Of a DNA stretch of 64,000 nt, positions 427 to 18,264 are shown piece after piece (the first letter of the stretch is position 1; the number at the start of each line of letters is the position of its first letter). The DNA is taken from assembly GCF_005298075.1 (NCBI RefSeq), contig NZ_SZZH01000001.1, forward strand, positions 1,116,001-1,180,000. The letters run 5' to 3'. The DNA comes from Nakamurella flava. Lineage in GTDB: Bacteria > Actinomycetota > Actinomycetes > Mycobacteriales > Nakamurellaceae. Position numbers and translations under genes: made by a program. A model generated the notes under the pieces. That model did no database searches, was not told where the DNA came from, and saw only the letters and a program-made list of their open reading frames with translations.

Positions 427-1593
427 TCAACCTGTCGCGTTCAGCCGGGCTGCCTGCCGCAACAGGTGATCGCGCTCGGCCGCGTTCGTCGCTGCCGCGC
501 TCGCCTCGGCGTACAACCGGGCCGCCACTGTTGTCTCGCCGGCGCTTTCGTGCAGGTGGGCGGCGACGGCGGTCCACCTCGGCACGGTGCAGGGCACGTC
601 ATTCAGCGCAGCCAGACCAGCTCGCGGACCGTCGGCCTCACCCACGGCCACCGCCCGATTGAGCCGGGCGACCGGGGTGTCGGCGAGCCGCAACAGTTCG
701 TCGAACCATTCGACGATCTGCACCCAGTCGGTCTCGCCGGTGCTCGGCGCGTCGGCGTGCAGGGCGGCGATGGCTGCCTGGGCCTGGTACTCCCCCAGCC
801 GGTCGCGGGCCAGGGCTGCCTGCAGGATTTCGACCCCCTCGGCGATCAGCCCCGTGTCCCAGCGGGAACGGTCCTGCTCGGCCAACGGCACCAACTGTCC
901 AGCGGCGTCGGTGCGGGCGGGTCGACGGGCGTGGTGCAGGAGCATCAACGCGAGCAGACCGGCCACCTCCGGGTGGTCGACGACGGTGGCGAGCTGTCGG
1001 GCGAGGCGGATGGCTTCGGCGGCGAGATCGACGTCGCCCGAGTAGCCCTCGTTGAAGACGAGGTAGAGCACCCGAAGGACGGTGGTGACGTCGCCGGGCT
1101 GATCGAGCCGCACCCCCGACACGGTCCGCTTAGCCCGCGAGATACGTTGCGCCATCGTCGCTTCCGGCACGAGGTAGGCGTCGGCGATCTGTCGCGTGGT
1201 GAGGCCACCGAGCGCCCGCAGGGTGAGCGCCACCGCCGACGACGGGGACAGGCCAGGGTGGGCGCACAGGAAGTACAACCACAACGTGTCGTCGGCCGGC
1301 ACCGGAGCTGCGTCGGTGAGCGGCACGGTCTGGGCGTGTGAACGATCTTCCCGTCGACGCCGGGCCGTCTCCGAACGATGCCCGTCCAGGTAGCGACGCC
1401 AGGCGACGGTCGTCAGCCAGGCCCGTGGCTCGCGCGGCGGGTCGCCGGGCCAGACGTCGACGGCTTCGACCAACGCCTCCTGGACGGCGTCCTCGGCCGC
1501 CGCGAACTCGGCGCCACGGTGGACGAGGACGCCCAGAACCAGTGGGATCAGCCGGCGGAGCGCATCCGCATCGAGCTCATCCATGACGGTCAT
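427..1593 (-). CDS. ECF42-type RNA polymerase sigma factor with C-terminal TPR-like extension
   Basis: This is a 388-residue extracytoplasmic-function sigma factor. The N-terminal third carries sigma region 2 (AEDAVQEALVEAV, then PRAWLTTVAWRRYLD) and region 4 (LTTRQIADAYLVPEATMAQRI). The long C-terminal half of helical repeats, with the conserved YLVFNEGY segment, is typical of group ECF42, which has no separate anti-sigma factor; the C-terminal domain is thought to control activity. The ATG at 1593 overlaps the stop of the upstream YCII/DGPF gene by four bases (ATGA). That pairing is itself the known genomic signature of ECF42. A longer start 16 codons upstream is possible but lies inside the YCII gene. 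The stimulus is unknown. Confidence 0.88.
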   Translation of the reverse strand: MTVMDELDADALRRLIPLVLGVLVHRGAEFAAAEDAVQEALVEAVDVWPGDPPREPRAWLTTVAWRRYLDGHRSETARRRREDRSHAQTVPLTDAAPVPADDTLWLYFLCAHPGLSPSSAVALTLRALGGLTTRQIADAYLVPEATMAQRISRAKRTVSGVRLDQPGDVTTVLRVLYLVFNEGYSGDVDLAAEAIRLARQLATVVDHPEVAGLLALMLLHHARRPARTDAAGQLVPLAEQDRSRWDTGLIAEGVEILQAALARDRLGEYQAQAAIAALHADAPSTGETDWVQIVEWFDELLRLADTPVARLNRAVAVGEADGPRAGLAALNDVPCTVPRWTAVAAHLHESAGETTVAARLYAEASAAATNAAERDHLLRQAARLNATG

Positions 1594-1997
1594 TCGGTGA
1601 TGGTGGGGGGCGCCTCCAGGAAGGGACGCAACTCGATCCATTCGTGCAGGGGCCGACCGCCGGCCCCCGGCGCGGAGGACAGCTCGGCCGCGACCTGTAG
1701 GGCTCGTTCCTCGCTGTCGACGTCGATGGCCATCCAGCCGGCGATGAGGTCCTTGGTCTCGGCGAACGGGCCGTCGGTCACCGGCGGGCGCCCATCACCG
1801 TCGAAGCGGACGAAGGTCCCGGTGGGTGCCAGCGCCTGGGCATCGACGAACTCGCCCGAGGCCTGCAGGCGATCGGCGAGGTCCTGCATGAAACGAATGT
1901 GGTCCGTCACCTCCTGCGGCGCCCAGCGGTCCATCGGGACGTCGTTGGCCGGAGCCGGTGCGCCACGGTAGTGCTTGAGCAGCAGGTACTTGGCCAT
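1590..1997 (-). CDS. YCII/DGPF-domain protein, ECF42 partner
   Basis: This small protein of 135 residues begins MAKYLLLKHYRG and carries the segment VTDGPFAETKDLIAGWMAIDVDS. The DGPF motif defines the YCII-related (DGPF) family that is regularly encoded beside ECF42 sigma factors. The ATG at 1997 is preceded by GAGAGG at good distance; another ATG sits just upstream at 2000. The gene is first in an operon with the sigma factor and is joined to it by an ATGA overlap, so the two are likely made in fixed ratio. DGPF proteins have a ferredoxin-like alpha/beta fold with conserved His and Asp, but their biochemical role is unsettled. They may be targets or partners of the sigma factor rather than inhibitors. 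Confidence 0.85.
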   Translation of the reverse strand: MAKYLLLKHYRGAPAPANDVPMDRWAPQEVTDHIRFMQDLADRLQASGEFVDAQALAPTGTFVRFDGDGRPPVTDGPFAETKDLIAGWMAIDVDSEERALQVAAELSSAPGAGGRPLHEWIELRPFLEAPPTITE

Positions 1998-2199
1998 CAT
2001 CGTTCCTCTCGGTGCTGCGACCCGGGTGGTCGCCTCGTAGGGAAGACGGAGACGCAACCCGGTTCTCGACATGGTCCGCCGATCTTTCTCCGGATTCCTC
2101 CGCGGCGGCCGCACCTCAGTACGTGAGAACGGCGATTCCGGTCGCGGCGACCGGACCCTACGGTGCAGATCCCGCAACGATGCGATCGAGGAGCAGCTC

Positions 2200-3279
2200 A
2201 TGCCGCTGGACAACCCGTTCTACTCCGCTGAACAGCAGGGCCCGTACGAGCTGATCTCGATCGGGCGTTTCGAGCTGGAAGATGGCGGGGTCATCCCCGA
2301 CCTGCAGCTCGCGGTCGCGACCTACGGTGAGCTGAACGGGGCCAAGGACAACGTCATCCTCATCCCGACCTGGTTCTCGGGGTCACACGCCACGTGGTGG
2401 CAGGTCTACATCGGTGAGGGTCGGGCCCTGGACCCGACGAAGTACTTCATCGTCGTCGTCAACCAGATCGGTAACGGCCTGTCGACATCCCCGCACACCA
2501 CCGACGACCCGAGCATCGCGATGTCGAAGTTCCCGCACGTCCGTATCGGGGACGACGTCCGGGCGCAGGAGATCCTGCTCCGCCAGCACTGGGGCGTCGA
2601 GAAGCTCGCACTCGTCGTCGGCGGATCGATGGGCGCGCAGCAGACCTGGGAGTGGGCCGTTCGGTTCCCCGAGAAGGTCGAGCGGGCCGCACCGATCGCG
2701 GGGACCGCGCAGGTCACCCCGCACGACTTCCTGTACGTGCAGACCCTGATGGACGCGATGACCAGCGATCCCGGATGGGCGGGTGGCGATTACACGTCCA
2801 ACACCGAGGTGGCCGACGGCCTGCGTCGGCACGCCGACATCTGGGCGATCATGGGCCTGACCACTGATTTCTGGAAGTCCGGGTTTTGGAAGACGATCCC
2901 GCCGGTCGTCGAGGGCCACGGCTGGGAAACGTTCGAGGAGTTCCAGCAGAACTTCACCCGGCTGCTGTTCGGCCTGATGGATCCGAACGCGCTGCTCACC
3001 ATGGGCTGGAAGTGGCAGCGCGGCGACGTCGCCCGCCTGGCCGACGGTGACCTCGCCGCCGCCCTCAGGCGGGTGACGGCCAAGGTGTTCGTCATGCCCA
3101 TCGAGCAGGACATGTTGTTCCCGCCGCAGGACTGCGTGCCGGAGGCCGACCTCACCCCAGGTGCGGAGGTGCGGATGCTGCACAGCATCGCCGGCCACTT
3201 CGGGCTGTTCGGCTTCGAGCAGTCGTACCTGGACGAGGTCGACGCGGCGCTCACCGAGTTGCTCGCGACACCGAACTGA
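2200..3279 (+). CDS. MetX-like alpha/beta-fold hydrolase/acyltransferase
   Basis: This 359-residue protein resembles the homoserine O-acetyltransferase (MetX) family in length and layout. It has an N-terminal NVILIPTWFSG strand, the nucleophile elbow VVGGSMGAQQTWEW (Ser about residue 143), an acid at EQDMLFPP (Asp about 304) and a histidine at GHFGLFG (about 333). The region where true MetX proteins carry the homoserine-binding N-x-L-G-x-C/T-x-G-P stretch reads NQIGNGLSTSP instead, so substrate and even acyl transfer are uncertain; it may be a hydrolase. The ATG at 2200 follows GAGGAG. An upstream extension of the frame exists but has no better start. It is divergent from the ECF42 operon and converges on the next gene. 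Confidence 0.75.
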   Translation: MPLDNPFYSAEQQGPYELISIGRFELEDGGVIPDLQLAVATYGELNGAKDNVILIPTWFSGSHATWWQVYIGEGRALDPTKYFIVVVNQIGNGLSTSPHTTDDPSIAMSKFPHVRIGDDVRAQEILLRQHWGVEKLALVVGGSMGAQQTWEWAVRFPEKVERAAPIAGTAQVTPHDFLYVQTLMDAMTSDPGWAGGDYTSNTEVADGLRRHADIWAIMGLTTDFWKSGFWKTIPPVVEGHGWETFEEFQQNFTRLLFGLMDPNALLTMGWKWQRGDVARLADGDLAAALRRVTAKVFVMPIEQDMLFPPQDCVPEADLTPGAEVRMLHSIAGHFGLFGFEQSYLDEVDAALTELLATPN

Positions 3280-3319
3280 CTCGGGAAAGCCGAATTGGTC
3301 ACCGTTGTCGACCCGCCGA

Positions 3320-3997
3320 TCAGAACGGCTGATAGCCGGCCCGGGCGATCGTGAAACCGAAACCACCGGGGCTGACGCAGGCCATGCCGACCTCCTCGAC
3401 GGTGCACACATAGCTACCCAGCGCGGCGACGTCGCCGTACTCGAGGGTGGTCGCGTCGACGCCGTCGAGGATCTCGGCGCCGCACGAGCTGATGTCGCTG
3501 GGCCCGGTGCTGGCCAGACTGATCAGTGCCCCGGAACTCGGGGAAGGGCAGGACGGCAGGTCGAAGTCGTAGACGCCGATGGTGCAGAACAGGATCCCAC
3601 CGACCACCCCGCAGGTGATGTTCCCGCTCGGCGACACGAGGCCGGAGACCGTCCGCCGGGTTCCGCCACCGCCCCCGCCAGCGGCTGCGGTCACGGTGGC
3701 CACCTCGGTGTGGGTGACGACGACCGGAGCCGGTGGCGGTTCCGCCGTGGTCGTCACCACCGAGGTGACCGCAGCGGGCGGCGCCACCGTCCTGGTCACC
3801 TCGACGACCGCTACAGCGGGCACGCTCGGGGTGGGTGCGAGCGCGGCCGTCGACGGGGTGCCGACGGCCGCGGTCCCGGCCGTCGTGCCGGAACAGGCGA
3901 CCGTCACCGCCAGGAGCAGCACCGAAAGGCTGACGGTCACGATCCGAGCACAGCGCTGACGGAAGGGGTGGCCGGCTCGGCCGGGGGTGAAGGTCAT
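3320..3997 (-). CDS. Putative secreted lipoprotein, unknown function
   Basis: This protein of about 225 residues has an N-terminal signal with arginines, a hydrophobic core (VSLSVLLLAVTVAC) and a plausible lipobox ending in TVAC, so lipidation and surface anchoring are inferred. A Thr/Ala/Pro/Val-rich linker follows, then a Gly-rich turn and a C-terminal domain of about 110 residues with paired cysteines (NITCGVVGGILFCTIG, SSCGAEI, YVCTVEEVGMACVS). This pattern is seen in small actinobacterial secreted proteins of unknown role, likely disulfide-bonded. I use the ATG at 3997 because it leaves a normal signal peptide; a GTG at 4036 would add 13 residues. It converges on the MetX-like gene and is not obviously in an operon. 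Confidence 0.65.
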   Translation of the reverse strand: MTFTPGRAGHPFRQRCARIVTVSLSVLLLAVTVACSGTTAGTAAVGTPSTAALAPTPSVPAVAVVEVTRTVAPPAAVTSVVTTTAEPPPAPVVVTHTEVATVTAAAGGGGGGTRRTVSGLVSPSGNITCGVVGGILFCTIGVYDFDLPSCPSPSSGALISLASTGPSDISSCGAEILDGVDATTLEYGDVAALGSYVCTVEEVGMACVSPGGFGFTIARAGYQPF

Positions 3998-4102
3998 GCC
4001 GATGTGACGCCCGCAACAAGTCACCGTCACGCCCACTGTCGAGTGACCGCTTGTCCGGATTGGGTGATCTGCCGGGATAGCCCACCCTGAGTCATTCAGA
4101 CG

Positions 4103-7100
4103 TCAGGATGCCGCCGAGGCCTCCTCCGAACGGAGACCGGCGAGAACGGGCTGCCGGCGCTCGCCGATCCGGATGCCCAGCCCCTCCAGCCGTTCCCACA
4201 CCGGTTCCATTGCCAGGTCCGGGTCACGGTAGAAGGCCGATCCGCGGATGCGCTCGAAAGTCCAGCCCGCCCGCTCGAGCACCTGCTGCCGCGCGCGGTC
4301 GCGATCCCACTCGGCCTCGGAATGCCAACGGTCGCCGTCACATTCGATGGCGAGCCGGGCGTCGGGGCCGCTGACGACGATGTCCAGCCGGTACTGACCG
4401 ACCCGGTGCTGGACGGTGACGTCGGTGTACCCGCGAGCCAGGAGCTTGCGGACGACGCGTCGTTCGAACTCCGATTCGCACCGCGCCAACAGGTCGCCGC
4501 GTTCGTCGTCGTCGGCGGCGGTGGCCGAGCAGTGCGCGATCAGCGCGGCCCGGTAATCCCCGGGCGACAGCACCGAAGGGTCGACCGAGGTGACCACCCA
4601 CAGCTGATCGCGGGCCCGGGACGCGGCGACGTTGATGCGGCGCTTGTCGGCCTCGCTGGTCATGGCCCCGTACCGGGTGCGCTCCTTCGACGGGTCAACG
4701 GCGATCACCGTGCTGACGACCATGACGTCCCGTTCGTCGCCCTGGAAGCTGGCCGCTTCCCCGACCCGGATCTGTCGACGTTCCACGGCGGCCGGGCCGA
4801 GGCCGTCGTACAGCAGCTCCTTGATCAGTGCCGACTGCTGGGTGCTCAGCAGGGAGATGACACCGAAGCTCATACCGTCGTACTCGGGGCGTCCGTCGAG
4901 GTCGCGCAACAGAGCGACGACAGCTTCGGCTTCGGGTCGGTTGACGAAGCCGGACCGGTAGCCGTCGGGTACCCGGACGGTGCGTACCGGCTGCCACCCG
5001 GGATGGGGTGGACGATCCCGCAACGGCACGATGCGCCCGTTGTAGGACAGCTGATTGGAGAATTCGATGATCTGCGGCAGACAGCGGAAGTGTTCGGTCA
5101 GCATGATCGGCTGCGAGAAGCGCAGCAGCGCGAGGTCGTACAGGCTCTTGTCGGGATCGAAAACCGTCCGGTAACCCGGGATGTCGCGAAGGTGGTCGTC
5201 CATCAGACGGTAGACCGGTTCGCGGTCCAGGCCGACGTTCTCCGGGCTGGTCTGCTGGTCGTCACCCACCACGATCGTCCGGCGGGCCAGGGCTAGCAGC
5301 GGCAGAGCCGTCATGCCGATCTGCGACGCCTCGTCGATGATCAGGACGTCGAACGGCGGCTCGGCCGAGGGTCGGAAGTTCAGCAGGGCCCGAGCAGTCG
5401 GCATGATCCAGACCGGCACGGCGGTCGTGGCGTTGCCCATGGCGCGGCGCATCTCGGCGATCCAGCGGCTGGCGTGTTTGCCTCCGGTCTTGCCGAAGCG
5501 CTTACTGGCTTGGACGTACTCCTCCAACGCCTGACGTTGCGGGTGCCCGAGGTTGTCGACCAGCCGCCGCCACGCCTTCTCGGTCACCAGCTCGGTGACG
5601 GTGCGTCGGCGTTCCGCGGTGACCTCGTCCAGCAGGGCCTGCAGGACGGCGGGCGCGGGCCGATCGGCGACGGCCCGTACCCAGGTCTCGAGGTGGCGCC
5701 ACTGCCAGGCGGCACCCAGGTCCTCGGGCTCACCGGCAGCGGAGTGGTCCTGCGTCATCTCGGTCGCCCAGACGGGCGCGACCGCCGCCAGCTCCGCCAG
5801 CAGAGCGTCACGCCGGTCGATGCTCGGGCGCATCTCCGTGAGGCGGCGGACCCGATCGATGCCCGACTGCCAGGCTTCGGTGTCTTCCCGGTCGAGGGCG
5901 TCCCGCAGGTCGGACCAACTCGTCGCCGTCGACGCGGCCGCGCCCTGATCCAGCTGGCACCTCAGTTGGCCCAGGATGCTGTCGATCTCGGCGGTCCGCG
6001 CCACGGCGGCGACGTCGGCGACGGTGCTCGCGGCGGCGGCGAGAGCACGTGGCTCGGGCGGCAGAGCGGGCAGCTGGAGCGCGGCGGCACGGGAAGTCAG
6101 GTCGGCCCACCGGCCGGCGGTGCGCCGCACCTCAGCCAGCGTGTCGAGGTGGGGGCCGACCGACGTCTCCGGGTAGCCCGACAGGGCAGGCGCGTCGACG
6201 TCGGCGGTCTGGTTCCGCCAGCGGGTGGCCAACCGGTGGCGGAGCTGTTCGACGGTCAGTGAGTCCAGGCAGACCTGAATGGCGTCGGCGGTCGTCGGTA
6301 CCTGCCCGTCGACCCGGCACGATTCGACCGCGGCCTTGGCATCCCGGGCGAAGAAGCCCAACTTGCCGGTGGTGCGCATGCGATGAGCGGCGTCGGCCAG
6401 GTCCTTCTCGAACTCCGCGCCGGGCTGCGGCGGCAGTTGGACATCGTGGGCGCGCACGTTCTTGCGCAGGGTGAAGACCTGATCGCGCAGGTCGGCCAGT
6501 GCTGCAGTGGCGTCCGCCCATTCAGCGTCCAGCCGGGGGTCGCTGCACTGCTGCACGACGCGCGCGACCCAGGTGCCGTCGACGCTTTGTCGCCAGTGGG
6601 CCTCACGGTCAAGGTCGGCGGCCAGGGTCCGGGCACGGTCGGCGGTGTCCGGCTCCACGGGTAGCGGGCCGGGAAGAACGGTGCGGGCCCGGGCGACGGC
6701 CGGCGCCAGGGCGGTGCGTTCACTCAGCAGGCCGGCGAGGTCGTGGCCGGAAGGCAGCCCGTCGACCGGGGGCAGATCGAGTACGGCCTGCCGGGCATCG
6801 GCGGGGTCGATGGTCCGCAGGGTGGCGAGCAACTCCCCGAATTCGGCGTCGGTGAGCGGGCAGGCGGTGCCGGGGGTGATGGGATCGGGGATGTAGCCGA
6901 GGTCGGCATGATCATGGACCCAGCCGGCCGCGATCTGCGGAGTGACCGCCGATCCGGCCGACCACTGCCCGGGCAGCGTGTCGAATTCCGCCCACCGGCT
7001 GGCCCGCAGCTGTTCGCTGACCTCCGCGTATTCGCGGTCGAGCCGGTCGATGGTCTCGGTGAGGGTGCGAATGCGTTCGTCGGCGACCCGTCGGTCGACC

Positions 7101-8470
7101 AGCCCCACCTTGGTCTGGATGCTGCGGATCGCATCGCCCAGTCGCTTGCGGCCGTCCTCGTCGGCCCCCAGGACGGAGACCGTCAGGTCGCGGATGTCCT
7201 CCGGCACCTTGTCCGCCAGGACCTTCAGTGCCTGTTCCTTCTCGGCCGTCACCAGCACCCGTTGCCCCTCGGCGACGAAGTGGCTGATGAGATTGGCGAT
7301 GGTGTGCGACTTCCCGGTACCCGGCGGGCCCTGGACGACGACTCCGGCCTGCCGACGGCTGGTCCGCAGGATGCGTTCCTGCTGCTCGTTCGCCGGCAGG
7401 GGCAGCAGGAGCAGTTCGTCGTCGATCGTGGTGGAGGTTTCACCGTCCGACGCGGGGACTCCCGCCAGCGTGGCCGGGTCCTCGCTGGTGAGGATCCCCC
7501 GCAGTGGCGGTGGGATCACCTCGGGCAGATCCCGGTACAGCTCGCGCATCTCGTGCAGGAAACCCTCGGAGTCCGGCTGCCGGCGGCGGAGGAACAGCGT
7601 CCAACCCGGATGGACGACGGCTCGGGCGGTCCCCCTGCCGTCGTCCGCTGACGGCTGGGTGTCGACGGTGCGGACGGTGCCGTGGTCGTCGACAGCGCGG
7701 ACCAACCGCCGGAGCACGTCGGCGATCTCGTCGCTCACCCAGGGATCGAGATCGCTGTCGGCGATCTCCTGGCGGGTGGCCGCGTAACCGGCCGGGTCAT
7801 GCACGTCGAGACCGTTGATCATCCGCATCTCGATCTCCGGGCCACCGGCCGGGCGGACGGTGACGCGTTGCGTCCGGACGTCGATGTCCACCTCGACCGG
7901 AACCGTCAGCAGCGGATGGTCGACGGTCTCGCCGGACGCCGGATCCGTCCACGTCAGGCGACCGAAACCCCACACCAGCTCGTAGGTTTCGCGATCGACG
8001 GCGAGGACCTCGCGCTGCTCGAACAGGGCCCGATGCAACGACTTGACTGCTGCTGCGTTGCGGTGATCGTCCCTATAGAGGGCCCAGACACCGGACACCC
8101 AGTCGCGGGCCGGCCGGGTCAGCTGCTCCCACGCCGCGACCTGCTCGACGGTGGCGTCCGCTGCGGCCGGGATGATCGACGGCTCGGTGTCCGGCCGGAC
8201 GGACGGCTCCATCAGGAGCGCGGCGATCTCGTCCGGAACCGCGGGTGGCTCGGGGAGGTCGACGAAATCGACGGTGAGCCATCGATCCTCGCCCGGATGG
8301 ACGGTGACCGCCGGGTGCGTGGGCAGCGCCGCGGCGTCGATCCGGAACAGTCGGTGGTCGGCGGTCCGCCGCACCGGCGGATTGCGGATCGCCTCGAACG
8401 CCACCAGGTAGTCGATGAGGCGCAGCGCCTGATCGCGCGGCGACAGCATCGCTCCCTCGCCCTGCTCCAT
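4103..8470 (-). CDS. Large SF1 (UPF1-like) helicase with C-terminal Vsr/DUF559-like nuclease domain
   Basis: This is a single protein of about 1455 residues. The Walker A motif GPPGTGKSHT lies near residue 380 and Walker B IDEAS near 1040, followed by GDDQQTSP, a LTEHFRC motif, FQGDERDVMVVS and NVAASRARDQLWVV. These are motifs Ia-VI of superfamily 1 DNA2/NAM7/UPF1-like helicases; a long insert of predicted coiled coil separates motifs I and II. The last 120 residues (FERRVVRKLL, YRLDIVV, IECDGDRWH, RQQVLERAGW) form a Vsr-like DUF559 endonuclease fold. An N-terminal 300 residues resemble no domain I can name. The start is uncertain: ATG 8470 or ATG 8449, the latter just behind GAGGGAG. It is a lone gene. 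Nucleic-acid restriction or repair is inferred; phage defence is possible, not shown. Confidence 0.85.
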   Translation of the reverse strand: MEQGEGAMLSPRDQALRLIDYLVAFEAIRNPPVRRTADHRLFRIDAAALPTHPAVTVHPGEDRWLTVDFVDLPEPPAVPDEIAALLMEPSVRPDTEPSIIPAAADATVEQVAAWEQLTRPARDWVSGVWALYRDDHRNAAAVKSLHRALFEQREVLAVDRETYELVWGFGRLTWTDPASGETVDHPLLTVPVEVDIDVRTQRVTVRPAGGPEIEMRMINGLDVHDPAGYAATRQEIADSDLDPWVSDEIADVLRRLVRAVDDHGTVRTVDTQPSADDGRGTARAVVHPGWTLFLRRRQPDSEGFLHEMRELYRDLPEVIPPPLRGILTSEDPATLAGVPASDGETSTTIDDELLLLPLPANEQQERILRTSRRQAGVVVQGPPGTGKSHTIANLISHFVAEGQRVLVTAEKEQALKVLADKVPEDIRDLTVSVLGADEDGRKRLGDAIRSIQTKVGLVDRRVADERIRTLTETIDRLDREYAEVSEQLRASRWAEFDTLPGQWSAGSAVTPQIAAGWVHDHADLGYIPDPITPGTACPLTDAEFGELLATLRTIDPADARQAVLDLPPVDGLPSGHDLAGLLSERTALAPAVARARTVLPGPLPVEPDTADRARTLAADLDREAHWRQSVDGTWVARVVQQCSDPRLDAEWADATAALADLRDQVFTLRKNVRAHDVQLPPQPGAEFEKDLADAAHRMRTTGKLGFFARDAKAAVESCRVDGQVPTTADAIQVCLDSLTVEQLRHRLATRWRNQTADVDAPALSGYPETSVGPHLDTLAEVRRTAGRWADLTSRAAALQLPALPPEPRALAAAASTVADVAAVARTAEIDSILGQLRCQLDQGAAASTATSWSDLRDALDREDTEAWQSGIDRVRRLTEMRPSIDRRDALLAELAAVAPVWATEMTQDHSAAGEPEDLGAAWQWRHLETWVRAVADRPAPAVLQALLDEVTAERRRTVTELVTEKAWRRLVDNLGHPQRQALEEYVQASKRFGKTGGKHASRWIAEMRRAMGNATTAVPVWIMPTARALLNFRPSAEPPFDVLIIDEASQIGMTALPLLALARRTIVVGDDQQTSPENVGLDREPVYRLMDDHLRDIPGYRTVFDPDKSLYDLALLRFSQPIMLTEHFRCLPQIIEFSNQLSYNGRIVPLRDRPPHPGWQPVRTVRVPDGYRSGFVNRPEAEAVVALLRDLDGRPEYDGMSFGVISLLSTQQSALIKELLYDGLGPAAVERRQIRVGEAASFQGDERDVMVVSTVIAVDPSKERTRYGAMTSEADKRRINVAASRARDQLWVVTSVDPSVLSPGDYRAALIAHCSATAADDDERGDLLARCESEFERRVVRKLLARGYTDVTVQHRVGQYRLDIVVSGPDARLAIECDGDRWHSEAEWDRDRARQQVLERAGWTFERIRGSAFYRDPDLAMEPVWERLEGLGIRIGERRQPVLAGLRSEEASAAS

Positions 8471-8530
8471 GCAGCGATCCCCCGTCACCGTTCTCATCAG
8501 CCGAAACACATCCGTGTCATTCGAACGGCC

Positions 8531-8536
8531 ATTCTA
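8531..8536 (-). promoter_or_regulatory. Candidate -10 box for the helicase-nuclease gene
   Basis: TAGAAT on the minus strand lies about 60 bases upstream of the likely start codon and fits the actinobacterial TANNNT -10 consensus. No convincing -35 hexamer was seen at 16-18 bases, so this is only a candidate. Confidence 0.35.
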
Positions 8537-8616
8537 CGGACGCGGTCCGACAGTGCGATCACACGGCGGGCCCACGCGATCCCCGGCTCCCGCCGGTCTA
8601 CCCGGACGCCACACCG

Positions 8617-9378
8617 TCACGGGCAGGCTGCCGCCCGGAACTCGTCCACCGGTCGGCGCTGAGCCCACTGTCCCGAAGCGCTCTGCACGAGACCCGGTGT
8701 CAGTGAACGCAAGTCCTCGGAGCTGAACGACACGTCGGTCAGGACGGCCTTGTCGCTGCGGGCAGAAGCGATCACCAGCATCTGTCCGTCGAGGGTCGAC
8801 TGGGTCAGGGGCGACCCTGTCTGCCAGCCCACCGAGGGATCGAGGAGATTGAGTTCCTGGTAGCCGGACACGGGATCGACTGACGTGTAGGTGGCCAACT
8901 CTTCGTTGAATTGCGGTGTGCGGTTTGGTCCGACCACCCTCACCCGGTCGATCGATCCGCGGCAGACCATCATGACGAGGATTGGTTCGCCCTGCGTTGT
9001 GACGGTCACGCCCATCCGCCCGATCCGGCCAGCGTCCTCGTCACGGGGCTGGATGATGCGGACCGCGATGTAGCCGATCAGAAGCACGACGACCATGACG
9101 GCAGCGCCCCATGACCAGGTCGACCATGTCCGCGGATGGAGGCCATCGGACGCCCACAGCGCGGTCACCCCACCGATCAGGGCGGCATAGCAGAGAAGGA
9201 TCAGCAGGCCGCCACCGATGTTCGGTCCGCCCCAACGCAACGGGTAGTACCCGGCCAACAGGCGATCCACGATGAGCCACAGCAGGCCGACCACCATGAC
9301 AGCGACCGCTACCCAGCGAATCCACCTCTGGGCGCGGGGACTGCGGGATTCATTCGGACCGGTTTCGCGCTCAGGCAT
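8617..9378 (-). CDS. Membrane protein with PLRWGGPNIGGG motif and extracytoplasmic tail
   Basis: This 253-residue protein has a short basic N-terminus, then three predicted membrane segments (VAVAVMVVGLLWLIVD, GGGLLILLCYAALIGGVTALW, AAVMVVVLLIGYIAVRI) and a C-terminal domain of about 120 residues, likely outside the membrane. Between the first two segments is PLRWGGPNIGGG, which recurs almost identically in the small protein at 10015-10392, so the two are paralogs in this part. I do not recognise a named family. The ATG at 9378 follows AAGGA with six bases spacing; a longer frame upstream exists but lacks a ribosome site. Its neighbours are other envelope proteins on the same strand. Confidence 0.7.
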   Translation of the reverse strand: MPERETGPNESRSPRAQRWIRWVAVAVMVVGLLWLIVDRLLAGYYPLRWGGPNIGGGLLILLCYAALIGGVTALWASDGLHPRTWSTWSWGAAVMVVVLLIGYIAVRIIQPRDEDAGRIGRMGVTVTTQGEPILVMMVCRGSIDRVRVVGPNRTPQFNEELATYTSVDPVSGYQELNLLDPSVGWQTGSPLTQSTLDGQMLVIASARSDKAVLTDVSFSSEDLRSLTPGLVQSASGQWAQRRPVDEFRAAACP

Positions 9379-9515
9379 GACCAATCCTTGCACCCGGGGG
9401 ACGGCGTCGGCCGTTTCAACCAGTGCCACCGCAGTTATCCACAGGCCAACGAACGGCCATGACAATGATCGGCTCGCTGCTTACGGTCGGATCGCGCAAC
9501 CATCAGGAGCCGATC

Positions 9516-9860
9516 ATGCCAGTCCATCTCCGTCCCCGACGGCCCGAAATCCGTTCGATCACATGCATACTCGCTTTGACCCTGTCCGGGTTCCTGGCCA
9601 TTGCCAGCTCGCACGATGGGGCGGGGAATGGAACACATCGACACGAGCCCGGTGATGCTCTCGTCGAGAAGCTGGCCCGAAGCTCGAATGTCGAGTTTCC
9701 CTGCCGCTGGGTGGAGGTCACCTCAGATCTGGCTCACGCCATCCCTGTCGACATCGACCCCACGGCCGGGAGGGTCGAGCAGAAGTCCTGTGGGGCACCT
9801 GCCGGCGACACCACAGGGATGGGCGGACCCGTCGAACGGCGCGTCGTGCCGACCTCATGA
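9516..9860 (+). CDS. Small putative secreted protein, unknown
   Basis: This frame of 114 residues starts at an ATG preceded by AGGAG at six bases, the main support for it. The N-terminus has arginines followed by a hydrophobic run (ITCILALTLSGFLAIASS), which looks like a signal peptide. The mature part is short and hydrophilic, with two cysteines (FPCRWV, KSCGAP) that could pair. It lies alone on the plus strand between minus-strand envelope genes. Third-position GC is only moderately high and I recognise no family, so it may be a young or decaying gene. Confidence 0.45.
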   Translation: MPVHLRPRRPEIRSITCILALTLSGFLAIASSHDGAGNGTHRHEPGDALVEKLARSSNVEFPCRWVEVTSDLAHAIPVDIDPTAGRVEQKSCGAPAGDTTGMGGPVERRVVPTS

Positions 9861-10014
9861 CGTCGCGGTAGCCCTCCGGTCGTCTCCGACCCCTGGTTCC
9901 GACGGCCTTCATCTTTTCTCGTCATCACCAGCCATGAACCGAGAGGGGACTCGAGCAATTGTTGCGATTCTGCGGTCTCAGTGCCGCCGACATTGTGATG
10001 GCACAGGCTAGCGA

Positions 10015-10392
10015 TCACAGTGCGCGAAGCAGAAGGTAGACGAAGGCCAATGCCGCCACGACGGCGAGCCCGATCCTGGTCATCGAGTTCCATTGTGGTG
10101 GCCTGACCGCGCTGGCAGCGCCGGTGACCACCGCACCGGCGGTAACGGTGGCGTTGGCGGCGATGAGCAGGAACCCCCCGCCGATGTTGGGGCCTCCCCA
10201 TCTCAGCGGCTGAAACTTCCGCAGCAGCGGATCGACGACCATCCAGCACAGCCCCACGACGACAAGCACGACGCCACCGATGCGGAAGGCTCCGGCTTGT
10301 TGGCCCGTCAAGTCGGCGTCCGCGTCGCTCACCAGGTCATTCTTGCCGGACCGCACTCCGTCGGCTTTGTGGGACTTGTCAGCGGCCGCCAT
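10015..10392 (-). CDS. Small membrane protein, PLRWGGPNIGGG paralog
   Basis: This protein of about 125 residues has an acidic, charged N-terminus of 35 residues and three predicted membrane segments. The stretch VVVGLCWMVVD, then QPLRWGGPNIGGGFLLI matches the gene at 8617-9378 closely, but this copy lacks the extracytoplasmic tail. The ATG at 10392 lies inside the end of the upstream gene (14-base overlap), so translation is probably coupled; a TTG at 10398 is an alternative. It is the last gene of a three-gene unit with the secreted protein and lipoprotein upstream. Its function is unknown; a membrane partner for the secreted protein is an inference from coupling. Confidence 0.65.
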   Translation of the reverse strand: MAAADKSHKADGVRSGKNDLVSDADADLTGQQAGAFRIGGVVLVVVGLCWMVVDPLLRKFQPLRWGGPNIGGGFLLIAANATVTAGAVVTGAASAVRPPQWNSMTRIGLAVVAALAFVYLLLRAL

Positions 10393-11449
10393 CGACAAGC
10401 AGGATGCGGTACTCCCCCACCTCGACAGCGTCCTCGCTGGTGGCGGTCAAGGTGGTCGTCCCCGCCTGCCCGGTGTTCGACTGCCAGGTGACGTCCCACG
10501 ACGTCGTCGCTGTGATGGGCCACTTGCCCGTCCCGTTGGTCCGCTCCGGTAGCGAACGCCAGCGGAACGTGTGGCCACATTCCGGTTCGGTCTTCCAGTC
10601 CACACCGGCCGGCGGGGGCACACCCGCCCCCTGACAAGTCAATGTGACCGCCGGACCCGACTTGTACCCCGAGAAAGACGGATTGCGCTCGGGTTCCCCT
10701 AGCGTCCACCTCGTGGCTGTGAGAGTCGCGCTCGCCGTCACAGTCACGGTTCCGGCTGTGACCGAAGCGGTCAGTTGTCCAGGGTCGTCGATCCACAACC
10801 ACGTTGGGATCTGAACGTAGACCTCACCCATATCCGGGCCAAAATGAATTTCAGGCGAAGGAACGGCGAGTTCTCGAATTGCTCTTTCGGCTAGAACCCG
10901 AGGATCAACAACTACCGGTGGAGCGAGTTCTTCGTTCGCGAAGAACTGGGTGACTACGGGTCGACCATCTAAGTTGCCAGGAGATCCAGGGACGCCGGGC
11001 CTCAACACGGCACAGCTCTTCCACCTGATCTCCCCGCTTGAAGGGTCGTGCCCCTCCCATAGGGGGTCACCTGCGGCGGGAGGGGGGATATAGCGAGTCC
11101 AGCCGCATCCATCCCCCCAGTCGTGTTGGCTATGCCCGTTGGAGGAGTTCGACTGGTCAAGGTCAGTGGAATCGTTGCCGACCGGCCCACTCGAGCTGGG
11201 TGCCACCTGCCGTTCATGTTCTAGGCCACCGTCGGAGGCCACAAGATCGACGCTCTGGTCTGAGAGACCGTCCAAGCCTGCGCTCCGGCCCGGTTGCTGC
11301 GCAGGCTCGGCCGTTTGAATAAGTAGATTACTCTCGCTCGTCCAAATATTCCGCGGTGAATTGGAACGACTTGCTTCAGGATGCAATCCAACGGTGGAAA
11401 GACCAACACATAATATGACTGTGGCCGCAGAGAGCTTGGTTGCTAGCAT
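10379..11449 (-). CDS. Secreted protein of the actinobacterial PTWLWI family
   Basis: This 356-residue protein starts MLATKLSAATVILCVGLSTVG, a signal peptide. A Ser/Asp/Gln-rich variable stretch of about 90 residues follows. The conserved part then runs CGWTRYIPPP, DPLWEGHDP, QIPTWLWIDDP, an alternating T/V strand region, CGHTFRW and TTSWDVTWQ. This pattern is familiar from widespread actinobacterial secreted proteins often mislabelled ATP/GTP-binding protein; no nucleotide-binding motif is present. The fold is probably all-beta. The ATG at 11449 overlaps the end of the upstream lipoprotein gene by seven bases. It contains more low-GC codons at its N-terminal end than its neighbours. The role is unknown, and the family is normally found next to an NTF2-like secreted partner, as here. 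Confidence 0.7.
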   Translation of the reverse strand: MLATKLSAATVILCVGLSTVGLHPEASRSNSPRNIWTSESNLLIQTAEPAQQPGRSAGLDGLSDQSVDLVASDGGLEHERQVAPSSSGPVGNDSTDLDQSNSSNGHSQHDWGDGCGWTRYIPPPAAGDPLWEGHDPSSGEIRWKSCAVLRPGVPGSPGNLDGRPVVTQFFANEELAPPVVVDPRVLAERAIRELAVPSPEIHFGPDMGEVYVQIPTWLWIDDPGQLTASVTAGTVTVTASATLTATRWTLGEPERNPSFSGYKSGPAVTLTCQGAGVPPPAGVDWKTEPECGHTFRWRSLPERTNGTGKWPITATTSWDVTWQSNTGQAGTTTLTATSEDAVEVGEYRILLVDGGR

Positions 11450-12168
11450 TGGAGGTTCTCGATCCACTGCACGTTTTGGACTCTCCAGACGCCGTCTGAT
11501 CCGCGCTCGAAACCCGCTTGAACGAAGTGGCGGTCGGCACCAAGAGCGTGAACCTCGCCCGTGCTCACAGAAATAGAGCCCCAGCCAGATTGATCCTGGC
11601 AATCGCGAAGAAGTGCGAACTGCTCGCCGTCGATAGGTTGGGGCCAGAACGGACGAAGAATCACTTCGCCATACTGGCCTAGGCCCTCCGCTTCGAATTG
11701 CGCCGCTGCCGCTAGTAGCTTTGCCTTCTGCGGGTCAACCGCCACCGGTTCGAGCAGCTGTTCCCGATCTTCTGCGGGAACTTTTGTCAGTCCGGCTAGC
11801 ACATCCCAGTACTTGGCCCACTGCGCCTCGATTGCCGCTCGATCTGCCTGTTCAACAGGACTGAGGTTTCCAGGCGAGTCGGTACCGGACGGCGTCCCTA
11901 ACACGCTAGAAGATCGCGAGAGCGGAGTGGAGCTGGCGATCGATGGCACCGGTGACTGGGTGGGCGCCGAAACCGTTGCGGTCGGCGAGACCGGTTCCGA
12001 CGCAGCGACGACCGACGGCGACACAGTGACCGACAAGGGTGCCGTCGAACTCGGACCGGCACCGTCAGCCGAGCTGCACGCGACGAGCGAGCAGCTCAGA
12101 CCGGTCACGAGCACCGCGGCCGCCGTTCGACGGACCACCTGCGACCTACGGGTCAGACCCCCGATCAC
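11443..12168 (-). CDS. Lipoprotein with NTF2-like C-terminal domain, unknown function
   Basis: This protein has 241 residues and a GTG start at 12168 preceded by GAGGTG. The N-terminus is basic, then hydrophobic (AAAVLVTGLSCSLVAC), with a lipobox ending LVAC followed by SS, so a lipoprotein is predicted. A Ser/Thr/Pro/Val-rich linker of 60 residues leads to a C-terminal domain of about 140 residues (AIEAQWAKYWDVLAGL, then LLRDCQDQSGWGSIS, ending VWRVQNVQWIENLQC). That layout fits the NTF2-like secreted proteins that accompany the PTWLWI family. It is first in a unit with the two downstream genes, joined by short overlaps. No enzyme residues are evident. Confidence 0.7.
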   Translation of the reverse strand: MIGGLTRRSQVVRRTAAAVLVTGLSCSLVACSSADGAGPSSTAPLSVTVSPSVVAASEPVSPTATVSAPTQSPVPSIASSTPLSRSSSVLGTPSGTDSPGNLSPVEQADRAAIEAQWAKYWDVLAGLTKVPAEDREQLLEPVAVDPQKAKLLAAAAQFEAEGLGQYGEVILRPFWPQPIDGEQFALLRDCQDQSGWGSISVSTGEVHALGADRHFVQAGFERGSDGVWRVQNVQWIENLQC

Positions 12169-12633
12169 GACACCACCTCACATCTGTCACATGCACCTCA
12201 CATGCACGAGTTCGCCCGACGATAACTACCGCGTCCGCCGTGGGAATTCTGAAATACGAATGATGTGGACAACTCGGACTCCGCCGCCGAACGGCTGCAC
12301 GCTGGTATCTCGCGTTCCGCGATCGACGCACTACGGAGCGAAGAGAAATCACTGGATCGGGAAGCGTTGACAGCCTGATCGAGGTCGGGCTGATAGTCGG
12401 GCTGCGAGGTCGTCGCTGGCCGCTAGGCCATCTGACGGGTTTTCCCAGTCCCGGGGTCACGACCTCATCACGCTCACCGTCGAGCGGGCTTCCGACGCTG
12501 TACCGACACTGGACGACCGGACGACGGCACATCTCCTGTGGCCGCCACCGATCATGTGCAGTTGTCGTCCGACCGCCCCGACATACACGTCGTGCCGACC
12601 CGGGTTCGGCCTCGTGACGGCCTCATGGATCGG
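12169..12633. other. Intergenic stretch, about 465 bp, no confident gene
   Basis: This region separates the divergent lipoprotein and LacI genes. It is less GC-rich than the surroundings near 12180-12370. Open frames here have poor composition and no ribosome sites. It presumably holds the two promoters; I see no RNA gene or mobile element remnant. Confidence 0.5.
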
Positions 12634-12663
12634 TACAGTCCTTCGGACGAAGCAGTTCGAAGG
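12634..12663 (+). promoter_or_regulatory. Candidate promoter and inverted repeat before the LacI gene
   Basis: TACAGT at 12634-12639 fits a -10 box. Just behind it CCTTCG (12640-12645) and CGAAGG (12658-12663) form an inverted repeat over the expected transcription start, a possible autoregulatory site. The -35 region is unclear. Confidence 0.35.
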
Positions 12664-12671
12664 GGGCGCCG

Positions 12672-13670
12672 GTGGCGAGGGACGACGGCCGGGTCACCAT
12701 CTATGAGGTCGCCGACCGCGCCGGCGTGAGCATCTCGACGGTGTCGAATGTCCTGAACAAACCGGACCGGGTCAGCCTGGACACCCGCACGCGTGTACTG
12801 GCCGCGGCCGACGCCCTGGGTTTCGTTCCGAAGGCCCACGCGGCGACGCTGGCCCGTCGGGGCACGGGCCGTATCGCCGTGATGGCCCCGTTCACCGCCT
12901 ACGCCTCGTACCTGCGTCGGCTCGCCGGCATCCTTGCCCCGGCCGCCCAGGACGATCTGGACGTCGTCGTCCTGGATCATGAATCCGCCGCGGTGGCCTC
13001 CTCCCCGGCGTTGGCCAGCATGCCCGTCCACGGTCGGCTCGACGGGGTCATCGTGATGGGCCTCGGTCTGGAGCCTGGCATCAGCCAGCGGCTGCGGGAG
13101 CGACGGCTGCCCACGGTCGTGGTGGACGCCGACAGCGACGATTTCAGTCGGGTCCTGATCGACGACTCGGCCGGTGGCCGACTCGCCGCCGAGCACCTGC
13201 TCGGCCGCGGCTACCAGCGGTTCGGCTATCTGCTGGAGCGGCAGATCGCCGACTACGAATCCCAGGCCATCAAGCGGCTCAACGGTTTTCGGTCGACAGT
13301 GCGTGCCGCGTCGGCCGGTGACGTCATGGTCGCGACGTGCGAGAACTCGGTCAGCGCCGCCCGTTCCGCCGCGGCCGAACTGCTCGATCGACCCGACCGG
13401 CCGGCGGCCGTCATGGCCCACCACGACCTGCTCGCCGTCGGCGCGCTGCTCGCCGCCCGCGACCGTGGCCTGCGGGTACCGCAGGACGTCGCGATCATGG
13501 GTTTCGACGACGGTGAGGCCGCCGAGGCCGCGGACCTGTCGACCGTCCGGCAACCGTTCGAACAGTCCGGTGGCGCGGCCCTGGCGGTGCTCCTCGGATT
13601 GGTCAACGGCAACTCCCTGCGGTCCACCACGATGCTGGACGTGGCCGTCGTCCCCCGCGCCACCACCTGA
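12672..13670 (+). CDS. LacI-family transcriptional regulator
   Basis: This repressor has 332 residues. An N-terminal helix-turn-helix (TIYEVADRAGVSISTVSNVLN) and hinge helix (HAATLARRGTGRI) bind DNA, and a periplasmic-binding-protein-like effector domain fills the rest, ending in the usual FDDGEAAEAADLSTVRQP block. The GTG start at 12672 follows AAGGGGG. It lies upstream of, and in the same direction as, an esterase and a sugar importer, separated by 216 bases that hold a promoter and a LacI-type half-palindrome, so it most likely represses that operon in response to the imported sugar. The sugar itself cannot be told from sequence. Confidence 0.92.
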   Translation: MARDDGRVTIYEVADRAGVSISTVSNVLNKPDRVSLDTRTRVLAAADALGFVPKAHAATLARRGTGRIAVMAPFTAYASYLRRLAGILAPAAQDDLDVVVLDHESAAVASSPALASMPVHGRLDGVIVMGLGLEPGISQRLRERRLPTVVVDADSDDFSRVLIDDSAGGRLAAEHLLGRGYQRFGYLLERQIADYESQAIKRLNGFRSTVRAASAGDVMVATCENSVSAARSAAAELLDRPDRPAAVMAHHDLLAVGALLAARDRGLRVPQDVAIMGFDDGEAAEAADLSTVRQPFEQSGGAALAVLLGLVNGNSLRSTTMLDVAVVPRATT

Positions 13671-13711
13671 AGCGCGGCGCGCCCGGTCCGTTTCGCGACA
13701 CCTGCGTCGGT

Positions 13712-13763
13712 GTGACGGCTCCCGCGACCGGTCTATAAAAGTGCTTCGATGAAACCGCTTGAC
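13712..13763 (+). promoter_or_regulatory. Candidate promoter with LacI-type operator for the sugar-import operon
   Basis: GTGACG at 13712-13717 and TATAAA at 13734-13739 are spaced by 16 bases and could be -35 and -10 boxes. TGAAACCGCTTGAC at 13750-13763 matches the LacI-family pattern TGAAANCGNTTNCA at most positions, including the central CG. It sits across the expected start of transcription, so binding would block initiation. The binding protein is inferred to be the upstream LacI regulator. Confidence 0.5.
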
Positions 13764-13886
13764 GAACGGCCCCGCCGTCGAGTTGAGTGACCACCACAGA
13801 CAGATCCCGGCCGGCCGAACACCCCATCGCCTGCCGCTCCCACGCCGACGTGGTCCTCCGCTTCGGCTTCTCGCGTGAGGACTTCG

Positions 13887-14873
13887 ATGTCGTTGCACCC
13901 TGTGGTTCGGCAGTTCCTCGACAGCGCCGAGGACATGGGCGACCCGCTGGCCCCGCCCGCTCGTCGCCGCGCCGAGATCATCGCTGCCGCCGACGAGATG
14001 TACCTGCGCACCGGGCTTCCCGGTGAGCCGGCCGATGTCGACGACCGGTGGATCGATGTCGACGGGGGCACCCTGCGGCTGCGCCGCTACCGCCCGGTGG
14101 GCGCGACCGACGCGGATGTGCTGCCGGTCCATGTCTTCCTGCACGGCGGCGGCTGGTGGCTCAGCTCGATCGACGAGCTCGTCAACGATGCGCTCTGCCG
14201 GGCCCGTTGCGCCCGCCTGGGGATCACCGTCGTCGCCGTCGACTACCGCATGGCGCCCGAGCACCCGTTCCCGGTGCCGTTCGACGATTGCTACGCCGCC
14301 CTGACCGACCTCGCCGAGCACGCGGCGCAGTGGCTGATCGACCCCGCCAATATCTCCATCGGCGGCGTCTCCGCCGGCGCCAACCTCGCCGCCGCCGTCG
14401 CCCTGGCCAGCCGGGACCGAGGTGGCCCGGCGCTCCGGCTCGTGCTGCTCGAGGTCCCCGTCGTCGACCTGACTCTCGACACGATGCGGTCCAGCGGCGT
14501 CCCCGACGATTACGGCATCACCGTCCCCGGGATGGAGCGCTGCGTCGAGCTGTATCTACCGGACGCCGCGCTGGCCCGGGATCCGCGGGTGTCGCCGCTG
14601 TTCGCCGCCGACCTCACGGGGTTCCCGGCCACCCGGGTGCTGACCGCCGAGTTCGACCCGCTGCGCCGCGACGGCCAACTCTTCGCCGACCGACTGCGCG
14701 CCTCCGGCGTGCCGGTCGAGCACACCGTCTACCCCGGCGCGATCCACGGCTCGCTGTCGCTCACCGGCGTCTGGGCGCCCGCCCGTCAGTGGTGGGACGA
14801 CGCCGTCGACGCCCTGCGGACCGCCCACCGGTCCCCCGCCTTGTCGACGGCACCCGCCGTCGTCGACGTCTGA
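13887..14873 (+). CDS. HSL-family alpha/beta hydrolase (acetyl esterase-like)
   Basis: This esterase has 328 residues. It shows the HGGGWW oxyanion motif, VDYRMAPEHPFP, the nucleophile elbow GGVSAGAN, an acid at EFDPLRRDG and a histidine at GAIHG: a complete hormone-sensitive-lipase-type catalytic set. The ATG at 13887 follows GTGAGG at six bases. It is the first gene of the sugar-import operon, so a role in removing acetyl or other ester groups from the imported carbohydrate is likely but inferred; no signal peptide is seen, so it acts in the cytoplasm. The substrate-binding-protein gene starts 53 bases downstream. Confidence 0.88.
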   Translation: MSLHPVVRQFLDSAEDMGDPLAPPARRRAEIIAAADEMYLRTGLPGEPADVDDRWIDVDGGTLRLRRYRPVGATDADVLPVHVFLHGGGWWLSSIDELVNDALCRARCARLGITVVAVDYRMAPEHPFPVPFDDCYAALTDLAEHAAQWLIDPANISIGGVSAGANLAAAVALASRDRGGPALRLVLLEVPVVDLTLDTMRSSGVPDDYGITVPGMERCVELYLPDAALARDPRVSPLFAADLTGFPATRVLTAEFDPLRRDGQLFADRLRASGVPVEHTVYPGAIHGSLSLTGVWAPARQWWDDAVDALRTAHRSPALSTAPAVVDV

Positions 14874-14926
14874 CCCGCTCACCACCCCCGCACCGCTGCC
14901 GCAGTACGCCAAAGGAGGCGCCCCGC

Positions 14927-16312: not shown

Positions 16313-16319
16313 CCGTCCC

Positions 16320-17321: not shown

Positions 17322-18142
17322 TCACCTCCCGTCGCGAGGCGCTCATCGGGCGCGTCCTGCTCGTCGTCCTGATGCTCGTCACCGTCGTGCCGTTCGTGAC
17401 GCTGTTCGTCACCGCCCTGCACCCGTCGGGCACCTACCCGTCCGGCCTTTCCTGGCCGGACGACCCCCAGTGGGGCAACTTCGTCACCGCGTTCACCTCG
17501 GCCCGGATGGGCGCGCTGCTGTGGTCGAGCACGCTCATCGTCCTCGGCGTCGTACCCCTGGCCCTGATCTTCGGCACCATGGCCGGTTTCGCCTTCGGCC
17601 AGATCCGGATGAAGGGCGGCCGGGTCGCTTTCCTGCTCCTGGTGCTCGGGCTGACCCTGCCGTTCGAGGGCATCATCACGCCGCTCTACTTCCAGATGCG
17701 CGACTTCGGTCTCCTCAACACCCGCTGGGCGATCATCCTGCCGCTCATCGGCCTGTTCATGCCGTTCTCGGTGCTCTGGATGCGGGCCCACTTCGTGTCC
17801 GTGCCCAAGGATCTCTCCGAAGCGGCGTCGATCGACGGAGCCGGGATCTGGCAGCTCTTCTGGCGCGTCCACGCACCGCTGGCCCGCCCGGCGCTGTCGT
17901 CCCTGGCGATCCTGCTGTTCCTGTGGACCTGGAACCAGTTCCTGCTGGCCATCGTCCTGGTCGACCAGCCTGACAAACGCACCATGGCCGGTGCTCTCGG
18001 TGCGTTCCAGGGTCAGTGGGGCACCGACATCCCGCTGCTGTGCGCGGGTTCGCTCCTCATCATGACGCCCACGGTGATCATCTTCGTGATCTTCCAGCGG
18101 CAGTTCGTGGCCGCCCTGCTGCAGGGGTCGGTCAAGGGATAG
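17318..18142 (+). CDS. Sugar ABC transporter permease (MalG/UgpE type)
   Basis: This is the second permease of the importer, 274 residues with six predicted membrane segments. The ATPase-contact EAA loop reads SEAASIDGAGIWQLFW and is followed by a membrane segment with LFLWTWNQFLLAIVL, typical of the MalG/CarB group. Its ATG overlaps the preceding stop. It ends the operon; a perfect 18-base hairpin follows at once. No ATPase gene is linked, which in actinomycetes usually means a shared MsiK-type ATPase powers the system. Confidence 0.93.
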   Translation: MITSRREALIGRVLLVVLMLVTVVPFVTLFVTALHPSGTYPSGLSWPDDPQWGNFVTAFTSARMGALLWSSTLIVLGVVPLALIFGTMAGFAFGQIRMKGGRVAFLLLVLGLTLPFEGIITPLYFQMRDFGLLNTRWAIILPLIGLFMPFSVLWMRAHFVSVPKDLSEAASIDGAGIWQLFWRVHAPLARPALSSLAILLFLWTWNQFLLAIVLVDQPDKRTMAGALGAFQGQWGTDIPLLCAGSLLIMTPTVIIFVIFQRQFVAALLQGSVKG

Positions 18143-18145
18143 TCC

Positions 18146-18185: not shown

Positions 18186-18224
18186 ATCCCCGGCGTCGGT
18201 CGCCGAAGCAGTCGTCGAAGCAAG

Positions 18225-18254: not shown

Positions 18255-18264
18255 ACCTCCCGGT

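Follow-up and report, generated by a model that had tools for sequence, protein, structure and literature searches.

The stretch of DNA analyzed here (64,000 nucleotides from contig NZ_SZZH01000001.1 of Nakamurella flava, hereafter the window) harbors on its minus strand, at 4103..8509, a long open reading frame (ORF) encoding a superfamily 1 (SF1) helicase fused to a C-terminal nuclease. Counted from the GTG at 8509 the frame comprises 1468 codons, and alternative starts are found at ATG 8470 (1455 residues) and ATG 8449 (1448 residues), giving a protein of 1448–1468 residues depending on the start codon. An earlier note, made from the sequence alone, had proposed about 1455 residues, which corresponds to ATG 8470, with the frame itself extending to the GTG. 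In the alignment of homologs, similarity to relatives begins near residue 24 of the GTG-start protein. The G+C content at the third codon position reaches 0.87 and a relative from the same genus (G004; genomes are labeled G and loci L throughout) is 59% identical across residues 9–1458, which together indicate that the ORF is a real gene. No sigma-70 promoter or terminator pattern was found in 3000–9600.

Three Pfam families, all well over their cut-offs and all on the minus strand, define the protein. AAA_11 (residues 374–498, E = 1.6e-17; 7016..7390) covers the first half of RecA1 with the Q motif and the Walker A sequence GPPGTGKS (residues 394–401; 7307..7330), AAA_12 (residues 1122–1308, E = 7.9e-19; 4586..5146) covers RecA2 with motifs IV–VI, and motif II (DEASQ, residues 1059–1063) is located between them at 5321..5335. 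The presence of both families together with motifs Q, I, II, III, IV, V, and VI places the motor among UPF1-like SF1 helicases, as the earlier note had recognized, and the solved structures matching the helicase profile are those of UPF1 (E = 4.8e-26), SEN1, DNA2, and IGHMBP2. The third family, REase_MTES_1575, a nuclease of the Vsr/PD-(D/E)xK fold, occupies residues 1348–1441 (4187..4468) with an E-value of 2e-30 and a score of 105 bits, where the cut-off is 38. DUF559 overlaps this same stretch with a weaker match (E = 2.2e-5); the C-terminal DUF559/Vsr-like nuclease predicted earlier was therefore correct in kind, MTES_1575 being the better name. The comparison of the nuclease with solved structures by sequence gave no relevant match.

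The catalytic residues of both modules were highly conserved across an alignment of 67 homologs. The Walker A Lys (K400) was found in all 65 rows having a letter at that column, the D, E, S, and Q of motif II in 67 of 67 each, and the motif VI Arg (R1298) was likewise invariant (67/67). In the nuclease, D1376, E1389, and D1391 were conserved in 65, 65, and 64 of the 67 sequences, respectively, whereas E1259 (62/67) and H1396 (55/67) comprise looser positions.

The region preceding the motor, at residues ~22–360 (7430..8446), consists of a long helix followed by β strands and has no Pfam name: residues before 374 produced no Pfam match at E-values up to 1, in agreement with the earlier observation of some 300 nameless residues, and yet the region is alignable between homologs of different phyla. 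An AlphaFold model covering residues 14–540 (mean predicted local distance difference test score of 78, and 83–97 per 10-residue block over model residues 11–270) exhibits a 51-residue helix with β strands after it. This predicted order of elements resembles the stalk and β domain ahead of the UPF1 motor, a layout described for UPF1-class motors in a passage of PMC11090510. A Foldseek search of the modeled region against the PDB returned nothing at E ≤ 0.001, the top row being UPF1 at E = 0.045, and in a second PDB comparison no chain reached Z ≥ 5 over the whole N-terminal model, the top Z of 5.2 falling on a single helix. A possible kinship of this region to DUF4011-type proteins was strong only with the helicase included; once the helicase was removed, a single 40-column match persisted (P 0.001–0.0035, probability 9–19%), which is a hint.

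The UPF1-type helicase is split between motif Ia and motif II by an insert of ~540 residues (~470–1010, ends approximate; 5480..7102, minus strand), delimited by the alignment and by the model of its start. The long insert reported in the earlier note is real, and its first ~40 residues, the part covered by the AlphaFold model, form one long helix. A further element varies within the family: the last ~230 residues of L028, L029, L030, L037, and L093 are winged helix-turn-helix (wHTH)-like, and the presence of this tail differs between close relatives. It was detected in seven of the 67 copies with a profile built from five of those seven, the carriers being L028, L029, and L030 from the genus, the BREX (bacteriophage exclusion)-linked L037 and L093, and L081 and L071. 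The window copy has no such tail, and 60 of the 67 homologs likewise gave no match to the tail profile. The loss of the tail by frameshift was examined as a candidate and rejected, since no trace of it was found in the window (best E = 0.27).

Homologs of this protein spread through several phyla, with at least 409 relatives confirmed in a scan that sampled each species by one genome, of which the best 80 were listed, and with matches at E ≤ 1e-80 in 27 of 200 genomes of an order-level sample. MTES_1575 was found in all 30 homologs scanned for it and DUF3320 in two of the 30. Some of these relatives have defense genes as neighbors. In six genomes (G050, G167, and those of L044, L083, L093, and L124), a copy sits within or adjacent to a set of BREX genes. 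In G050 the order is pglX, brxC/pglY, the copy, and pglZ, the three BREX genes scoring 1667, 1458, and 821 bits with PADLOC, and on the Acinetobacter plasmid L124 the copy starts 63 bases beyond an annotated pglX-pglZ-brxL set. The Virgibacillus locus L044 presents a PglX-type gene, PglZ, an SNF2-like gene (named by eye), and the copy; in Mycolicibacterium (L093), PglZ and BrxL-like and DUF262-like genes (both named by eye) precede the copy. In Halanaerobium (L083), an HsdR-like gene, the copy, an unknown gene, and brxA-, brxB-, and brxC-like genes (the HsdR- and brx-like genes named by eye) are followed by PglX-type and PglZ genes; along L083:6629-24061, parts of two defense systems run in one direction, and the gene after the copy encodes 301 residues. 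In G167 (L240), the copy, a DUF262-like gene (by eye), and a 1455-residue ORF are followed on one strand by PglX, PglY, and PglZ, these three named by BLAST to the G050 proteins, so that positions 1313–19900 have the appearance of a Pgl-type BREX operon with the helicase–nuclease and the DUF262-like gene at its head.

Other defense genes recur beside further copies. On the sphingomonad plasmids L119 and L130, the genes ahead of the copy are those of a methyltransferase and of a type III-like restriction enzyme, and L129 likewise carries a type III-like restriction–modification (RM) system, its copy appearing interrupted by an insertion sequence (IS). A type I RM system adjoins the copy at L095 (HsdM by its N6_Mtase match), and GIY-YIG and AbiE genes are found near that of L121. 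Variovorax L120 has a DUF4194 gene and an ATPase ~5 kb from the copy, presumably of Wadjet type, and Streptomyces L126 has TIGR02678/02679/02680 genes nearby, which we take to be Wadjet. Plasmid loci L122, L123, and L125 have no clear defense company, the neighbors at L127 are mostly annotated as hypothetical, with an IS within the match, and L128, L131, and L132 carry no annotation. A copy in G030 is adjoined by a pair of genes resembling a toxin–antitoxin pair (named by eye).

The family is also carried by mobile elements. Out of 72,556 plasmid records, 46 match at E ≤ 1e-30; the L124 copy alone matches 34 plasmid records at E ≤ 1e-100, 24 of them from Acinetobacter, and 17 records hold a single place covering at least 80% of it, the neighborhood having been viewed for L124 alone. 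Only one of 50,697 phage records matches at E ≤ 1e-10, and partially, and in predicted viral contigs long matches were found at 10 of 78 loci (L159–L168). The 1597-residue copy of L161 has a head-morphogenesis gene to one side; to the other lie a helix-turn-helix (HTH)/excisionase-like gene, a phage DNA methyltransferase (scoring 1733 bits), and a gene for a major head protein. The scan that named these genes also identified a portal gene in L163, whose methyltransferase and HTH genes were named by their likeness to L161. Both stretches (L161:1889-11633 and L163:3149-13192) are predicted phage contigs in which the copy sits as cargo among head genes. Integrase-type recombinases lie near the copies of L164 and L168. 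L160 and L166, from two metagenomes, are apparently one element, where a short gene resembling DUF2924 (by eye) adjoins the copy.

We evaluated this linkage in 30 genomes with a copy, drawn from the best 80 loci and chosen for their long contigs, some of whose neighbor lists were already known; contigs were paired by their numbers, a pairing verified at five loci. PglZ exceeded its cut-off in 12 of the 30 genomes and was within ~12 kb of the copy in three of them, where 0.06 would be expected (Poisson 4e-5). The N6_Mtase scan of the same genomes produced 115 rows, 114 over the cut-off, and five genomes (L044, L083, L093, L095, and L053) had such a match no more than ~12 kb from the copy, against 0.52 expected (2e-4). 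These two tests are not independent, because three of the five N6_Mtase loci are BREX loci. In the order-level sample, N6_Mtase matches lie ~13.5 kb from the copy in G138 and G217, which brings the count within 20 kb to three against 0.39 expected, under a limit set post hoc, and in G167 PglZ is 16 kb away. Thus, the linkage to defense genes is real, yet confined to a minority of loci.

Several observations weigh against the defense reading. In the order-level sample, PglZ was within 12 kb in just one of 27 genomes (G050, already found), and N6_Mtase within 12 kb also in one of 27 (G225), against 0.25 expected and hence near chance. Among 96 nearest neighbors, scanned out of the 193 first and second neighbors of 58 homolog loci, none of the PADLOC models had more than two matches. 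At the window locus itself there is no defense gene: nine of the ten flanking proteins had no PADLOC match and the tenth, a LacI repressor, had one weak HTH match, so the earlier description of a gene standing alone holds. Its neighbors encode an extracytoplasmic function (ECF) sigma factor with DUF6596, a YCII protein, an alpha/beta hydrolase, a CrgA-like protein, the LacI repressor, an esterase, and four proteins without a family. Nor did the window's own genome contain any PglZ, N6_Mtase, or McrBC (PF10117) match. In the tree of 67 copies, the window copy falls in a fully supported group of 14, comprising five from the genus, five from f12, one from f15, and three Actinoplanes-type rows, and PglZ or N6_Mtase was found within 20 kb in none of 13 of these rows (L058 left out). 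Four of the five g12 copies (L033–L036) and the three Actinoplanes-type copies retain common neighbors, a synteny that favors vertical inheritance in these sister groups. This pattern in its own clade weakens the defense reading for the window copy without removing it. The second copy of G049, L031, is found elsewhere; it is 53% identical to L034 of the same genome, and the two have different surroundings.

Within the genus itself, the distribution is patchy, with the gene in five of 17 genomes, the window's own included. Judged by a neighboring carboxylase, the closest relatives are G002 (77% identity), G009 (76%; assembly 88% complete), and G012 (69%), none of which gave a full-length helicase–nuclease match, and G004 and G010, with the carboxylase at 68%, have the gene at 58–59% identity. 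The five copies of the genus have no neighbors in common within ~8 kb, except for ABC-type ATPases in L027 and L028. The search for an empty site found the flanking genes too poorly conserved across the genus to define an unoccupied one. The earlier note had named homologs present as vertically inherited core genes, with no defense neighborhood, as the outcome that would speak against defense; the lack of defense genes around the window copy and of PglZ or N6_Mtase linkage in its clade, together with the synteny of the sister groups, partly matches that outcome. The alpha/beta hydrolase at window 2071-3279 is patchy too, with an 89% identical copy in just one other genome of the genus (G002) and a 62% paralog elsewhere in its own genome. 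Of the neighboring proteins at window 8617-9465 and 10015-10398, the first contains a CrgA-like stretch and also shows a 37% match at the second.

For the family, then, a role in defense is supported by the linkage, the carriage by plasmids and phages, and the patchy spread. The earlier suggestion of a possible defense protein is partly supported: it stands for the family, with its PDC-S37 match, its BREX, RM, and Wadjet-type neighbors in a minority of loci, and its mobile carriers, and for the window copy we infer it from the family and with less force than for the family as a whole. The window gene is a real, intact, stand-alone member of this widespread helicase–nuclease family, which is probably an anti-phage effector, and we moderately favor the reading that it is a single-gene innate immune protein against invading nucleic acid. 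In such a protein, the UPF1-type motor would engage the invader's nucleic acid at an end, gap, or fork that is single-stranded or abnormal in some other way, and would then translocate, powered by ATP. Checking the substrate may fall to the N-terminal region together with the helical insert, which would also keep the C-terminal Vsr-fold nuclease off until the motor engages, upon which the released nuclease would cut the translocated strand or the duplex. DNA is the likelier target because relatives keep company with RM systems, BREX, and a phage methyltransferase; RNA is possible as well, since UPF1-like helicases act on both nucleic acids.

The strongest competitor is a chromosomal enzyme of DNA repair or of the replication fork, DNA2-like and retained by these actinobacteria for genome maintenance, from which the defense-linked copies would be derived. 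The match of the helicase profile to DNA2, IGHMBP2, UPF1, and SEN1, the common neighbors in g12 and Actinoplanes-type genomes, the lack of defense neighbors at the window locus, and one genus copy adjoining CinA and an Ada/AlkA-like gene are all consistent with it. The eukaryotic DNA2 also joins an SF1 helicase and a nuclease in one protein, but there the nuclease is N-terminal, unlike the C-terminal one found here. Moreover, a maintenance enzyme fits poorly with the 12 of 17 genus genomes without a full-length match, the closest complete relative G002 among them, with the near absence of shared neighbors around the five genus copies, and with relatives borne by plasmids and phages, so that we regard this explanation as unlikely.

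Less probable still is an RNA-targeting abortive-infection protein, in which the UPF1-like motor would track RNA and the Vsr-fold nuclease cleave it, as is proposed for CoCoNuT systems. The layout shared with the type III-B CnuH described in PMC11090510, and the standing of UPF1 and SEN1 among the best solved matches, point in this direction; the companions found, which are mostly DNA-modification systems, and the McrBC scan, which in 57 genomes gave no match closer than 12 kb to a copy and none anywhere in the window's own genome, point away from it. A degenerate or non-functional remnant would account for the missing tail, which L028, L029, and L030 have and of which the window holds no trace, and for the lack of partners at the locus, but it is most improbable for a full-length open frame with intact core catalytic residues whose lack of a tail-profile match is shared by most homologs.

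Returning to the immune reading, a broader version of it is possible, though rather doubtful: the family would be a portable nuclease effector of the kind that BREX lacks, recruited to type 1-like and Pgl/type 2-like BREX operons at four places in the tree (L037/L093, L044, L083, and L124), and working also by itself, beside RM systems of type I or III, or in phages along with a DNA methyltransferase, the actinobacterial copies being a stand-alone form that would discriminate self from non-self with no methylase as partner. According to a passage of PMC9122589, the cooperation of BREX factors is not understood, and its abstract states that BREX systems appear to be without a nuclease. A helicase–nuclease in or next to the BREX operons of unrelated bacteria comprises a concrete candidate for a BREX effector, and the stand-alone actinobacterial copies would allow the same machine to be studied without partners. 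Of these observations, those on BREX-linked and phage-borne copies are of greatest interest, and they concern relatives, not the window copy. In the main text of a BREX survey (PMC12839542), a word search returned none of Vsr, MTES_1575, DUF559, DUF4011, UPF1, or DUF3320, and the literature searched contained no experimental study of this family; the preprint by Payne et al. (2024) from which the candidates of the PDC-S37 kind stem may already report a BREX link.

Compared with known systems, the protein shares its SF1 helicase branch with UPF1, SEN1, DNA2, and IGHMBP2, which are eukaryotic and to which the MTES_1575 nuclease has no sequence match. The comparison with Mokosh made in the earlier note is a loose one: the helicase part aligns, with the best MkoA and MkoC stretches at residues 1046–1310 and 1133–1310, but the nuclease lies outside them. 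The nuclease of Mokosh is of phospholipase D (PLD) type, and the window protein has MTES_1575 instead, with no Pfam match to a PLD family at E-values up to 1. Anti-phage ProA (NCBIfam NF058533) and Hhe (NF042953) share the SF1 helicase and the nuclease region after it, but the window protein scores 230.6 bits against a curated cut-off of 1500 for the former and 158.1 against 2000 for the latter, the best stretches of both being confined to its C-terminal half; a ProA protein above the cut-off is found in the same order (L133, 1790.9 bits). The Microbacterium testaceum protein MTES_1575, which gave the nuclease family its name, is introduced in a passage of PMC3710099 as an SF1 helicase with a Vsr-type restriction endonuclease; it exceeds 2000 residues and bears transglutaminase, HEPN, and two wHTH domains, none of which Pfam finds in the window protein.

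An architectural parallel is CnuH of type III-B CoCoNuTs, for which the relevant section of PMC11090510 describes a UPF1-like SF1 helicase with a large helical insertion after Walker A and a fused Vsr-like nuclease, a layout equal to that of the window protein. CoCoNuTs are defined in that section by their McrB/McrC partners (CnuB/CnuC), and such partners are missing within 12 kb of the helicase–nuclease copies in the 57 genomes as judged by PF10117 alone, McrB itself not having been searched; the nearest PF10117 match, in G083, is 17.9 kb from the copy. A wHTH at the N-terminus is a further trait of CnuH, and for that end of the window protein the AlphaFold model gave the PDB comparisons described above, topped by UPF1 at E = 0.045 and by a Z of 5.2 on one helix. 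As for a BREX accessory gene, the linkage to pglX/pglZ is seen in the six other genomes and not at the window locus. Among PADLOC models, PDC-S37, MkoC, Hhe, and MkoA each match all 30 homologs scanned, and the best for the window protein is PDC-S37 (PDLC05009; 232 bits, E = 2.7e-69), with its best stretch at positions 561–1339 of the 1550 in the profile and a second stretch besides. The name PDC-S37 did not occur in the literature searched, and most single-gene candidates of its kind are without validation according to part of PMC12988326. PDC-S37 is catalogued as an unvalidated single-gene candidate for phage defense, to which the window copy corresponds without the C-terminal extension and with no known system beside it, and some of its homologs correspond while embedded among the genes of known systems.

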